Assembly (NCBI GenBank): GCA_029194535.1
Contig: JARFXR010000001.1
Location: 1,434,721-1,498,720, forward strand
Origin: Nitrospira sp.
GTDB lineage: Bacteria > Nitrospirota > Nitrospiria > Nitrospirales > Nitrospiraceae
Direction of reading: 5' to 3'
Length of the DNA stretch: 64,000 nucleotides
Position 1 is the first letter of the stretch. Each line of letters begins with the position of its first letter. Positions 44,254 to 53,281 of the stretch are shown piece after piece. Made by a program: the position numbers and the translations under genes. Below the pieces are notes generated by a model. The model was not told the origin of the DNA. It saw only the letters and a program-made list of their open reading frames with translations, and ran no database searches.

Positions 44254-44295
44254 TTGACAAGGGCATGTGTTAAATGATATTGAGAATACATATCA
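44254..44295 (+). promoter_or_regulatory. Promoter overlapped by a Fur box
   Basis: TTGACA at 44254-44259. The 21 bp at 44275-44295 form TGATAT-N9-ATATCA; its central 19 bp match the Fur consensus GATAATGATAATCATTATC at 14 positions. The operator covers the expected -10 and start (GATATT at 44276-44281 after 16 bp), so iron-loaded Fur would block transcription of the genes at 44413-46076. Confidence 0.75.
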
Positions 44296-44412
44296 ATACC
44301 AACAATGACGTGAGCCTTTGCAAATACAGACTTTCATGACCTGTCAACTGGAAGCACCAAAGGGTGCAAGCAGCGCTTGTTTTTCGAAGCGAGTGCAGGA
44401 AGGCTGCTCAGG

Positions 44413-44637
44413 ATGACCGCTGCAACACAGCGGGAGGCGATCCTAGATGCTCGTGTGTTGAGCATCCCGACTCGTCTGTCTGGTTCCGGTCCTTGCAGGA
44501 AGGTGCCGGCCGGTCTGGTCGACGTGCTCAAGGAATAGCGGCTAGCCCACCCGGTTTTTAGCCGGTGGCTAAAAGAGGAGGTCGAGAATGCCGCGGCTGC
44601 TCCGCTGCCGACCACCAACTCGGCGGCACTCAGGTAG
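44413..44637 (+). pseudogene. Possible small gene interrupted by an amber codon
   Basis: ATG at 44413 opens 41 codons (MTAATQREAILDARVLSIPT...GLVDVLKE) to TAG at 44536-44538; the same frame then continues 32 codons (RLAHPVFSRWLKEEVENAAA...AALR) to TAG at 44637. Both parts have normal bacterial composition and the helix-rich ends join well, so CAG (Gln) to TAG is a plausible loss. It is the first frame after the Fur-controlled promoter. Alternatively two chance frames. Confidence 0.3.
44556..44574 (+). other. Perfect short hairpin before an AGGAGG site
   Basis: TTTTAGCC and GGCTAAAA (44556-44563, 44567-44574) form an 8-bp stem with a 3-base loop, followed by GAGGAGG (44575-44581) and an ATG at 44588. 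The frame from that ATG is arginine-rich and overlaps the next gene, so no protein is claimed; the element may be a processing or translation-control signal in the Fur-regulated transcript. Confidence 0.35.
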
Positions 44638-44723: not shown

Positions 44724-44891
44724 ATGAAATCGAGCTGTGTAAAGTGCGGCGGGCTCTTGGTGCTCGAAGTAGTGTTGGATTTCTACCGAATGACCGAATG
44801 GAGATGTGTGAACTGCGGGTGGAATCGGCGTGATCTTCATTGGTCGCCAGCAGTCGAGAGGCGTGCGATTGGGAGAGGTGCGTACAAGTGA
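44724..44891 (+). CDS. Small zinc-ribbon protein
   Basis: 55 residues (MKSSCVKCGG...). Two CxxC knuckles (CVKCGG and CVNCGW) separated by 20 residues form a treble-clef or ribbon metal site. The ATG at 44724 has GAAGG eight bases upstream; an ATG at 44706 in the same frame is possible. Second small gene of the Fur-controlled run; function unknown. Confidence 0.6.
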   Translation: MKSSCVKCGGLLVLEVVLDFYRMTEWRCVNCGWNRRDLHWSPAVERRAIGRGAYK

Positions 44892-48762: not shown

Positions 48763-48844
48763 TCTCCAACCCGCGCGCTATCACCCCCACGGTATCAAAG
48801 TCCCCTTGGTCGCTGGGCGCTGGTTTCCATCTTGCGGGTGGGGC

Positions 48845-48900
48845 TAGACAGCCCCACGGTGCCTTGCTATAATAAATTCTGATAGTGTTTCTCAATATCA
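48845..48900 (+). promoter_or_regulatory. Promoter with Fur box upstream of fecI
   Basis: TAGACA (48845-48850), 17-bp spacer, TATAAT (48868-48873). The 21 bp at 48880-48900 read TGATA-N11-TATCA and the central 19 bp match the Fur consensus at 14 of 19. The operator covers the expected start point, so Fur-iron would repress. Confidence 0.8.
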
Positions 48901-48974
48901 TAGCTAGCCGCTTTTCGAGGCCAACGTCTTCCGGGACAGAGCCCACGGCATCAAGAGATGCGCGTGGGTTTTTT
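48880..48974 (+). ncRNA. Candidate iron-responsive small RNA or terminated leader
   Basis: A transcript from the Fur-box promoter (start near 48880) would reach a strong intrinsic terminator ending at 48974, giving an RNA of about 95 nt with no credible coding frame. This resembles RyhB-type Fur-controlled RNAs in size and regulation. The same element could instead be an attenuator in the fecI leader. Confidence 0.4.
48942..48974 (+). terminator. Intrinsic terminator between the Fur-box promoter and fecI
   Basis: CCCACG-GCAT pairs with ATGC-(G)-CGTGGG (48942-48951 and 48958-48968) around a 6-base loop, followed by six T residues (48969-48974). It lies 21 bp before the fecI start, so it ends a short upstream RNA or attenuates fecI. 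Confidence 0.7.
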
Positions 48975-48995
48975 ATGCTGCAACCTGAGGCTGAG

Positions 48996-49514
48996 ATGAT
49001 AAATCTGACCTGCGACGAGATTGAGCGTTTGTTCTACCAACACCGATTCGAGCTGACTAGGCGCCTGTGCCGAATGGTGCGATGTGAGCAAACCGCCGCT
49101 GATTTAGCGCAGGAGACCTATCTGCGCCTGGTCAATCTAGGGCAGACGACATCTGTCACCTATCCACGAGCATTGCTGTTCCGAACCGCTACGAATCTTG
49201 CTATCGATTATCTTCGCAAGGGGAAGTCGGAGCGGCAGAGCGGTGAAACATTGGATCACGCGGCGGATGTCCCGTCCAGCGCGCCTTCGGCGGAGCGAGC
49301 CATGTATGACAAACAACGGCTTCGCGTGTTTTCCCGGGCGATCGACTCGCTTCCGCACCGCTCTCGCGAGGCTTTTCTTCTCCACCGAGTCCACGATCGC
49401 CCGTATCGAGACATCGCGTCCTATCTTGGTGTGTCGGAGAGCGCAGTAGAAAAGCTCATCATGCGGGCTCTCCTGCATTGCCGGACATTCCTGCGAGAAA
49501 ACGATGCAGACTGA
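48996..49514 (+). CDS. fecI: FecI-type ECF sigma factor
   Basis: 172 residues. Region 2 (about 8-75): IERLFYQHRFELTRRLCRMV, DLAQETYLRL and ALLFRTATNLAIDYLRK. Region 4 (about 117-165): LPHRSREAFLLHRVHDRPYRDIASYLGVSESAVEKLIMRAL. These are the FecI/PvdS-group features. It would direct transcription of the receptor operon when its partner FecR is relieved by a siderophore-bound receptor. TGAGG five bases upstream supports the ATG at 48996 over that at 48975, which touches the terminator. Confidence 0.9.
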   Translation: MINLTCDEIERLFYQHRFELTRRLCRMVRCEQTAADLAQETYLRLVNLGQTTSVTYPRALLFRTATNLAIDYLRKGKSERQSGETLDHAADVPSSAPSAERAMYDKQRLRVFSRAIDSLPHRSREAFLLHRVHDRPYRDIASYLGVSESAVEKLIMRALLHCRTFLRENDAD

Positions 49515-49603: not shown

Positions 49604-50605
49604 ATGACACCATCGGACTCCGATTCCGACATAGACTCTTCGTCCGGCATCGGCAGAACTCTCGAAGAACAAGCTATAGCTTGGTTTGTTCGGCTGCGGT
49701 CTGACACCCTTCCAGAAGAGGATCGCCGGGCATTCGAGTCCTGGCGTCGGCAAAATCCCGCTCATGCGCTTGCCTTTGATGAAGTCTGCCGGCTTTGGGA
49801 TGATCCGTCGCTGAAAGCCGCTGCAGCATCAGCGGCCGCTGTGGAAGCGCTCTTGCCCTTGACACAGCGTCGGACCTCCGCACGAACGAGACGGATTTGG
49901 CATTGGGGTGCGCTCGCCACCGCCTGCGCAGTAGCGATCGTTGTGGCGTATCAGTTGGATATTGTCGTCCGGCTGAAGGCTGACCACCGGACTGCCACAG
50001 GCGAACAGCTTCAGATCGAACTCCCTGATCGCTCCACGGCTACCCTGAATACCAAGAGTGCCATTGCCGTCAACTTCGACGGGATGGCCCGCAAAGTTCG
50101 GTTACTCGATGGAGAAGCCTTTTTTCAGGTCGAACCGGATCAGGACCGGCCGTTTTTGGTCGAAGGACAGCAGATCGTCTCCCGAGCTGTAAGTACCAAG
50201 TTTCTCGTGCGTCGGCAGTCGGATGAAATTCGCGTCACCGTCGTAGAGGGGATCGTCGAGTTGGCTTCGACCGAGGGTGGATGGGAACCTATTCAATTGA
50301 CGGCCGGTCAACAGACCGCTGTCGACAGTCACGTGATGGGACCCATCCGCCAGGTCGATGTGCAGGCCGCGACCGCCTGGCTGCGCGGGCGTCTTATGTT
50401 TGAGAATGTCCGGCTCGCAGAGGTCATCGATGAGATCCGTCGATACCACCGTGGGGTGATCGTGATCTGGGGTCCAACTCTTGGAGATATGAGGGTAAGC
50501 GGAAGCTATACCCTTACTGATCCTGACGAGATTCTCGCTACCCTGGCCCAGACCCTTCCGATACACATGGCTCATCTCGGGAGTCGAGTCGTCGCTCTTT
50601 TCTAG
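49604..50605 (+). CDS. fecR: FecR-type anti-sigma factor
   Basis: 333 residues: N-terminal sigma-binding domain (AIAWFVRLRSDTLPEEDRRAFESWRRQNPAHALAFDEV, about 24-65), membrane helix (about 97-116), FecR periplasmic domain (about 135-230: GEQLQIELPDRSTATLNTKSAI, LLDGEAFFQV) and a C-terminal STN-like part (LMFENVRLAEVIDEIRRYHRGVIV). It passes the signal from the receptor's N-terminal extension to FecI. Standard position between fecI and the receptor. Confidence 0.9.
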   Translation: MTPSDSDSDIDSSSGIGRTLEEQAIAWFVRLRSDTLPEEDRRAFESWRRQNPAHALAFDEVCRLWDDPSLKAAAASAAAVEALLPLTQRRTSARTRRIWHWGALATACAVAIVVAYQLDIVVRLKADHRTATGEQLQIELPDRSTATLNTKSAIAVNFDGMARKVRLLDGEAFFQVEPDQDRPFLVEGQQIVSRAVSTKFLVRRQSDEIRVTVVEGIVELASTEGGWEPIQLTAGQQTAVDSHVMGPIRQVDVQAATAWLRGRLMFENVRLAEVIDEIRRYHRGVIVIWGPTLGDMRVSGSYTLTDPDEILATLAQTLPIHMAHLGSRVVALF

Positions 50606-50731: not shown

Positions 50732-53281
50732 ATGACGAATCCAGCTGGCAACGTCGCGCGGAAAGGGTGTCGGCATCCGCGGGTTGCTCGCTCCTGCCTG
50801 ATTTTGATCCTGGCCTTGGGAACGTGGCCGCAATTTGCGCAGGCGGTCTCATCCGGCTCTGCGCAGGCGGTCCCCATGTCGTTCAACATACCTCCACAAC
50901 CACTAAGCTCAGCATTGAACTCGTTTGCTGAGACATCCGGGGTCCAAGTGAGCTACCCGTCACAGTTGGCGGCGGAGGCGACCACCGCGGGCGTGAGCGG
51001 GACGTATACGCCGGACGCGGCGTTACGAACACTTCTCGTCGGCACGGGAGTGACCTATCAGTATACGAATGCCGCGACCATCACTCTGGTTCAGGCCTCT
51101 CCGGAGGCCGTACCGCTGGAAGGTCAGGATCAGCCCGTACAGCCTGAGCCTCAACCGGAAGCCTTCGATTTGGCGGAGTCCAAGCCGGTCAAGGTGCCGG
51201 AGGTGATTGTCAAGGAGGCGAAGGAACGGAGCGATTCCTATACGACCGATGAGGTGACGACGGCGACCCGTCTTCCCGTCCCCGTTCAAGATCTTCCTCG
51301 TTCTGTGGAGACGGTTACGAGACAGGTCCTGGACGATCAGAAATTGATTCGCATGAACGATGCGCTTCGCAATGTCAGCGGAACCTCGATGCCCAGCACG
51401 CAGGGCGGTCGAGCTGGTGATTTCATGATACGTGGATTCCAAAGCGACACCAACGTGTTCAAGAACGGGTTCAGGGAAGACAGCACGTTTGCAGCGCGTG
51501 CAGCCCGAGATGTGGCCAACATCGAAAGCATCGAGGTCGTCAAGGGACCTCCCTCCTATTTGTTCGGCCGGGCTGACCCAGGCGGCATCATCAACCAGAC
51601 CACGAAAAATCCCCTCCGTCACAACTATTACTCCGGGGAAATGATCATCGGCAGCTACAATTTGTACCGCCCGAACATCGATATCGGTGGTCCAATTAAC
51701 GAGAACAAGACGTTGACCTACCGGTTCAACGGTGTCTATGAAAATGCCGAGAGCTATCGTCAAGGCGTCAAGACCGAGCGGCTTTTTCTTACGCCGACGT
51801 TCGGGTGGGAATTTGGCTCGCGGACCACGTTTCGATTCGAAGGCGAATATCTGTACGACAAGTCACCGATCGATCGTGGGCTCGTGGCGGTAGGCGACGG
51901 GCCGGCCAACATTCCCATTAGCCGGTTCCTCGGCGACCCCACCAAACAAGGGTACATCAACCAGGGAAAAGCAACGATTATCATGTTCCATCAACTCAGC
52001 GACCAGTGGAAGGTTCGGAGCGCATTTCGTGCCGCTGTGTCGTCTGAGAAATACAACAGCCTCGAGTCATGGTTTATGGACGATGCGAGTGGAATCTTAC
52101 AGCTGGCTCAGTTTCAGATACCCACACTTGTTCAGAGCTACTATTGGCAGAACGAGTTGCACGGGAACGTTATGACCGGACCAGTGAAGCACAAGCTCAT
52201 GATGGGCGTGGAGTTGGGAAGGGAAAACGCCAGCCAGCAGCAGTATTCCGATACTGCCGGTGCCGCACCGTTGAACACCATCAACATCTATGATCCGGTC
52301 TACTCCTTCGTGTCGAATCCGTTGGACCTGCAGTCCGATACCTCGACGACGAACAACATCATGGGTATCTACGCCGGTGATCAAATCGACCTGCTCGACA
52401 ACCTACACCTCCATGCGGGCGGTCGATTCGATATTTTTGAACAGAAGCAAATCAATCGGCCAAGCGTGTTCAGCCCGGACGGAGGGTCGGACACGCAGTC
52501 CGACAACGCGTTTAGTCCGTCGATCGGCTTGACGTACCAGCCCACCAAAGCCATCGCGCTGTTTGCCGATTACACTCGCTCATTTCTCCCCCAATCCTCC
52601 ATCGCGCGAGGCGTCGACGGACAGTTGTTCAAACCGGAGCGAGGAACACAATACGAAGCAGGCGTCAAGTTCCAAGCGTTCGAGGGGAGATTACGGTCAA
52701 CAGTCGCCGTGTTCGATATTACGAAAACCAATGTGCTCACGCCGGACGTCAGTCAGGGGCCCAGCTCCGGATTTTCGATCGCCACAGGGGAGCAACGGAG
52801 CAAGGGCGTCGAGTTCGATATCGCCGGTCGAATCATGCCCGGCTGGGACATCATTGCAAACTACGCCTATATCGACGCACGAGTCACTCAGGACAATTTT
52901 TTTCAAACTGGCAGCCGACTGCCGAACGTCCCGCTGAGTCAGGGCAGCCTATGGACCACCTATTTCTTCCAAGAGGGGTTGATTAAAGGATTTGGAGCAG
53001 GCATTGGCATGTATGCACAAGGTCAACGAAATGGGCTTCTCCAATGTCAGAACCCAGCAGACTGTCAGCAACAGTTCCAGTTGCCTGGCTTCGTGCGCAT
53101 GGATGGGGCTCTCTACTATCGCAAGCCCGAAGTATTCACGAGGACCAATTTGCTGGCGGCGATCAACTTCACGAACCTCCTGGACCAACGGTATTTCGTA
53201 GGGGCTCAGAACTTCCGGGAGATCATCTATACCGGGGCTCCGCTCACCGTGCTGGGGTCGATCAAGCTGGAGTTCAACTGA
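50732..53281 (+). CDS. TonB-dependent siderophore receptor with signalling (STN) domain
   Basis: 849 residues. Signal peptide (about 20-39), STN domain (about 48-118: FNIPPQPLSSALNSFAETSGVQVSY...), TonB-box region, plug (about 170-290: LPRSVETVTRQVLDDQKLIRMNDALRNVSG; VKGPPSYLFGRADPGGIINQTTKNP) and a 22-strand barrel ending in the outer-membrane C-terminal SIKLEFN. The STN domain shows it is a transducer of the FecA/FpvA type that signals through FecR-FecI. The ferric ligand cannot be deduced. GGAGAGG lies seven bases upstream of the ATG. It closes the fecI-fecR-receptor unit. Confidence 0.94.
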   Translation: MTNPAGNVARKGCRHPRVARSCLILILALGTWPQFAQAVSSGSAQAVPMSFNIPPQPLSSALNSFAETSGVQVSYPSQLAAEATTAGVSGTYTPDAALRTLLVGTGVTYQYTNAATITLVQASPEAVPLEGQDQPVQPEPQPEAFDLAESKPVKVPEVIVKEAKERSDSYTTDEVTTATRLPVPVQDLPRSVETVTRQVLDDQKLIRMNDALRNVSGTSMPSTQGGRAGDFMIRGFQSDTNVFKNGFREDSTFAARAARDVANIESIEVVKGPPSYLFGRADPGGIINQTTKNPLRHNYYSGEMIIGSYNLYRPNIDIGGPINENKTLTYRFNGVYENAESYRQGVKTERLFLTPTFGWEFGSRTTFRFEGEYLYDKSPIDRGLVAVGDGPANIPISRFLGDPTKQGYINQGKATIIMFHQLSDQWKVRSAFRAAVSSEKYNSLESWFMDDASGILQLAQFQIPTLVQSYYWQNELHGNVMTGPVKHKLMMGVELGRENASQQQYSDTAGAAPLNTINIYDPVYSFVSNPLDLQSDTSTTNNIMGIYAGDQIDLLDNLHLHAGGRFDIFEQKQINRPSVFSPDGGSDTQSDNAFSPSIGLTYQPTKAIALFADYTRSFLPQSSIARGVDGQLFKPERGTQYEAGVKFQAFEGRLRSTVAVFDITKTNVLTPDVSQGPSSGFSIATGEQRSKGVEFDIAGRIMPGWDIIANYAYIDARVTQDNFFQTGSRLPNVPLSQGSLWTTYFFQEGLIKGFGAGIGMYAQGQRNGLLQCQNPADCQQQFQLPGFVRMDGALYYRKPEVFTRTNLLAAINFTNLLDQRYFVGAQNFREIIYTGAPLTVLGSIKLEFN

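Follow-up and report, generated by a model that had tools for sequence, protein, structure and literature searches.

The stretch of DNA upstream of fecI in this Nitrospira genome raises the question of what is gained when a transcript that begins at a Fur-box promoter meets a strong terminator just ahead of the gene. The preliminary description of the 64,000-nt stretch analysed here (the window) had proposed two answers, an iron-responsive small RNA of the RyhB or PrrF kind and a terminator that limits the expression of fecI. The features of the locus are as follows.

48845 to 48873, + strand: sigma-70-type promoter, TAGACA (48845-48850), 17-nt spacer, TATAAT (48868-48873)
48880 to 48900, no strand assigned: Fur box over the predicted start site, TGATAGTGTTTCTCAATATCA
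about 48880 to 48975, + strand: terminated leader RNA of ~96 nt, 5' end predicted
48917 to 48926, + strand: conserved single-stranded segment GAGGCCAACG (family consensus GAGGCCAGAG)
48919 to 48943, + strand: proposed helix P0, GGC (48919-48921) with GCC (48941-48943), which would exclude the terminator
48926 to 48937, + strand: P1 hairpin, GTCT/GGAC, covarying
48941 to 48974, + strand: intrinsic terminator hairpin (P2) and T6
48996 to 49514, + strand: fecI-type ECF sigma factor, the controlled gene
49604 to 50605, + strand: fecR-type regulator
50732 to 53281, + strand: TonB-dependent siderophore receptor

The two promoter hexamers match at 11 of 12 positions and a TG precedes the second; promoter-like sites numbered two in an 801-nt region, compared with 0.3 expected, and the -35 element of the leader is conserved as TAGACA or TGGACA in three relatives. 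The Fur box at the start of the leader, GATAGTGTTTCTCAATATC, scored 14/19 on the + strand and 15/19 on the - strand, and 14/19 on one strand was reached by 0.06% of dinucleotide shuffles of a 195-nt region. Within this box, TTCTCAATATCA is invariant across the four leaders compared (the window and the three relatives). When at most one mismatch was allowed, GATATTGAGAANNNNTATC was found twice in the whole 3.98-Mb genome, both times in the window (44276 and 48881), and its reversed control was not found in that genome at all. The terminator is an 11-bp hairpin (CCCACG-GCATC-AAGA-GATGC-g-CGTGGG-T6, 48942-48974) with a one-base bulge, because of which it is overlooked by a mechanical terminator scan; the leader folds at -32.3 kcal/mol (z -3.2). 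A GTG frame (48885) spans the leader and runs into fecI. Frames here are not conserved in the relatives, and a leader peptide or upstream ORF was ruled out for this reason. The analysis thus bore out what had been read in this segment beforehand, namely TAGACA-17-TATAAT, a 14/19 Fur box over the start, a strong hairpin with T6 ending at 48974, and an RNA of about 95 nt without a coding frame.

A palindrome, GGGCTAGACAGCCC (window 48841-48856), overlaps the -35 hexamer; among the four leaders it is complete only in this genome, and one relative (G001) has GGGGCTAGACAGGGCC in its place.

The likely start of fecI is the ATG at 48996, which has GAGG ahead of it and lies 20 nt past the end of the leader. 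Since this gap has no space for a second promoter, expression of fecI from the Fur-box promoter needs read-through. On the other side of the leader lie genes for a PepSY_TM protein and a DUF3325 protein. A second Fur-box promoter-like site was noted in the window at 44255-44296, with TTGACA nearby; its box, GATATTGAGAATACATATC (14/19), is an exact match to the family-type box, and it is followed by a small CxxCGG...CVNCGW frame (near 44725) and then by an AhpC/TSA-like gene (44917). The leader RNA was not detected at this site. An imperfect G+C-rich inverted repeat behind the box, TAGCCCACCCGGTTTTTAGCCGGTGGCTA (approximately window 44549-44577), is possibly a different leader structure.

A search of related genomes for the 95-nt sequence and its structure, one of the checks suggested in the preliminary description, found both. 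By BLAST against 41 genomes the leader was detected in three relatives (G001, G003 and G017), each time ahead of a fecI homologue and in the same layout as in the window; G017 belongs to another genus, and in G003 a divergent fur gene lies upstream of the leader. A covariance model built from the four leaders (R1) gave 85 matches, in 47 of 175 genomes of the family. A second model (R2), restricted to the common core and used with E up to 0.001, matched 132 of 396 sampled Nitrospirota genomes in 30 of 169 genera, with up to seven copies per genome, a tally for the phylum that is slightly high since its weakest matches include chance terminators (L160-L162). Four weak hits of this model (L160, L161, L162 and L080) were judged to be terminator-only chance matches and were omitted from alignment A7. 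The common core is ~60-66 nt long including the terminator, and consists of GAGGCCAGAG, the P1 hairpin, CRGAGCCC, a terminator with the foot GCCC/GGGC, and U5-6. Other families and classes contained additional members of the RNA family. When 84,980 species were scanned with a strict pattern, to which diverged members are invisible, only Nitrospirota records were returned (22 titled Nitrospira sp. and one titled 'Nitrospirae bacterium').

The genome under study carries a second copy of the RNA (G000:C2:449272-449337, E 1e-9) ahead of a porin-like gene, at a distance of 6 kb from the sole Fur-family gene found. This copy is enclosed by an iron locus (L058 2624-13958, G000:C2) containing fur, exbB, exbD, an ApbE-like gene, and genes for an FMN-binding protein, two porin-like proteins, an MbnH/MauG-like di-heme protein and two ferritin-like proteins. 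In another genome (G014), a copy of the leader RNA is preceded, at a distance of ~2.2 kb, by a cobalamin riboswitch (RF00174, 67.8 bits; L040 1466-1589).

The leader family is a structured RNA, and both of its helices, P1 and the terminator, covary strongly. In a MAFFT alignment of 58 sequences, 91.5% of the pair cells held standard pairs, as compared to 27-51% when the structure was slid along the alignment, and 126 double changes were counted versus 36 in shuffles. Similar values were obtained for 108 distinct sequences (90.5% of cells paired, slid structures at most 54%; 281 double changes versus 85.6 shuffled; covariation score 0.425 versus 0.153), in an alignment that was fitted to the model and is thus biased towards the structure, and against shuffles that do not preserve relatedness. 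The window gave no match in Rfam 15 at the gathering threshold, and when the window element and 16 other loci were searched by E-value, nothing above the cut-off appeared at the motif; permissive matches to known RNA families at the motif were at chance level only (e.g., NsiR1, E 0.43). A description of a leader RNA between the promoter and fecI was likewise not found in the open-licence literature searched. These results support a phylum-wide family of leader RNAs that is absent from Rfam 15 and from the open-licence papers searched.

The genes found downstream of the RNA copies belong mostly to the iron regulon. Of 110 copies, 91 have a recognised gene that begins no more than 450 nt downstream on the same strand, and the other 19 have no assigned neighbour. 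The neighbours are FecI (25), a small CxxCGG...CVNCGW, Zn-ribbon-like protein (16), Bfd-like proteins (9, assigned by their MYVCLCKG-type sequence, with a single weak match in NCBIfam), TonB (7), HD-domain proteins (7), TonB receptors (6), ExbB (5), MbnH/MauG-like di-heme proteins (5), porins (5), AraC (3), imelysin (1), and a cytochrome c and a multicopper oxidase (1 each, both called by eye from sequence); as the reference families were drawn from genes first noticed beside the motif, these counts express recurrence and do not measure enrichment against a null. Upstream of 61% of 67 copies there was a Fur box scoring 13/19 or more; the corresponding values were 3.9% for random stretches and 2.6% for shuffles. 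The ~55-aa CxxCGG/CVNCGW protein that recurs after the RNA in 16 copies (e.g., L073 8320-8487) had no Pfam hit and weak NCBIfam hits only, and is possibly an uncharacterised iron-regulon protein.

Taken together, these data make it very probable that the leader acts in cis on the gene downstream. The 20-nt gap, and the same layout before fecI in the relatives, make a terminator that limits fecI the better supported of the two options initially proposed. The RNA is most likely an on/off switch located in gene leaders and not a free small RNA, and we consider it probable that it is a regulated, riboswitch-like transcription attenuator of the Nitrospirota iron regulon, in which P0+P1 would alternate with the terminator.

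The switch itself was deduced from folding. Before the 3' arm of the terminator exists, the predicted fold is P0 (GGC/GCC) enclosing P1; computed on this shortened RNA, the probability of P0 averaged 0.87 across the family and exceeded 0.5 in 99 of 108 sequences, the value for the window member being 0.5. P0 occupies the terminator's own 5' foot, and the two are therefore predicted to be mutually exclusive. Attenuators and riboswitches are typically built in this way, with an alternative fold that shares the 5' bases of a terminator. The P0 bases are nearly invariant, with one A-U replacement (L047:1188-1255) and a broken pair in a few other members, and because of this near-invariance P0 shows almost no covariation. 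The terminator foot GCCC/GGGC is also nearly invariant, and the remainder of the stem is variable; this is as expected if the foot bases serve a second role; for a plain terminator such constancy would be unnecessary. A different antiterminator, in which GAGGCC pairs with GGGCUU of the terminator 3' arm in place of P0, is about equally consistent with the counts and is not better than P0. A kink-turn was also considered for the internal loop, on the basis of tandem G-A pairs, and is not claimed.

In the attenuator that we propose, iron-loaded Fur would occupy the promoter, and the leader would be transcribed as iron falls. The nascent RNA would fold first into P0+P1, in which GGC/GCC would close a purine-rich internal loop and the covarying hairpin; as the GCC of P0 would double as the terminator foot, only one of the two structures could form. 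An effector (an ion, a small molecule or a protein) would stabilise or destabilise P0+P1, and thereby decide between a stop at ~96 nt and read-through into fecI. Control would thus have two layers, Fur gating transcription of the leader and a second signal, acting via the leader, gating its continuation into the gene. We put the chance that this effector is an ion or a small molecule at a little less than even. If P0+P1 is the read-through form, a stabilising ligand would turn the uptake genes on, and Fe2+ would then more plausibly favour the terminator; the effector might also be a protein or a signal of low iron.

One possible explanation, held tentatively, is that an iron-responsive RNA-binding or antitermination protein binds the GAGGCCAGAG-P1-CRGA segment and sets the level of read-through. 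Purine-rich conserved unpaired segments flanking a small hairpin would suit a protein site, and one regulator could serve all copies; this scenario is compatible with the attenuator as one kind of effector.

The other option of the preliminary description, a trans-acting, Fur-repressed small RNA of the RyhB/PrrF kind, would use the conserved GAGGCCA as a seed to silence the mRNAs of iron-using proteins. The leader resembles RyhB and PrrF in its Fur box over the promoter, its size of about 90-100 nt and its intrinsic terminator, and it offers an unpaired conserved GAGGCCA next to a short covarying hairpin; moreover, a working terminator necessarily yields a short RNA. However, it matches neither RyhB/PrrF nor any other Rfam family in sequence or structure, and it occurs in several copies per genome, each just ahead of a different iron gene, which is unexpected for a stand-alone small RNA gene. 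In addition, fecI follows the terminator by 20 nt, and the supposed seed is not the same in the two copies that this genome carries (GAGGCCAACG versus GCGGCCAGAG). This option was therefore not supported as the main function; a trans-acting role is a weaker reading than the cis attenuator, and we regard it as unlikely.

Similarly improbable is a passive, unregulated terminator whose sole effect is to reduce the output of fecI, with all regulation left to Fur: the terminator is indeed strong and upstream Fur boxes are common, but a plain terminator requires neither GAGGCCAGAG nor a covarying P1 nor a near-invariant foot throughout the phylum. That the motif is the 3' end or terminator of the upstream gene, as its position within tens of bases after a membrane-protein gene at porin/HD-type loci (e.g., L058, L050, L055) might suggest, is very unlikely, since a promoter and Fur box separate the upstream gene from the motif in the window and in the fecI-type relatives, and the upstream gene in G003, fur, runs divergently.

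The regulated attenuator can be placed beside several known systems. FecI/FecR/FecA-type iron-starvation regulons share with this locus the Fur-box promoter and the gene order fecI, fecR, TonB receptor, but here a conserved terminator-bearing leader RNA lies between the promoter and fecI. With terminator-controlling riboswitches the leader shares a structured conserved core, the predicted exclusion of a terminator, and multiple copies before genes of one pathway; it differs from them in having no Rfam match or known ligand and in its very small core. Features by which riboswitches are recognised, a covariation-supported structure and a 5' leader position before functionally related genes, were found in this family. 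To our knowledge, few RNA sensors for iron have been described. An iron(II) response has been reported for the czcD (NiCo) riboswitch (Xu and Cotruvo 2020, as cited in PMC10043782). The leader, however, did not match this riboswitch in the Rfam scans, and the genes downstream of it are iron-uptake genes. A more speculative proposal is that the family may constitute a novel class of riboswitches, sensing either Fe2+ or a metabolite that reflects iron status, and may serve across the Nitrospirota as a second checkpoint after Fur; with the same reserve, its targets might be fecI, exbB/tonB, TonB-receptor, Bfd-like and imelysin genes.

The Nitrospirota include nitrite oxidisers and comammox bacteria, which rely on iron- and haem-rich enzymes. 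If the proposed attenuator is correct, a conserved RNA switch layered on Fur at their iron-uptake genes would constitute a regulatory RNA family that has not been listed so far. The gene context suggests iron as the sensed signal, and an RNA of ~60 nt makes the question of sensing directly testable.
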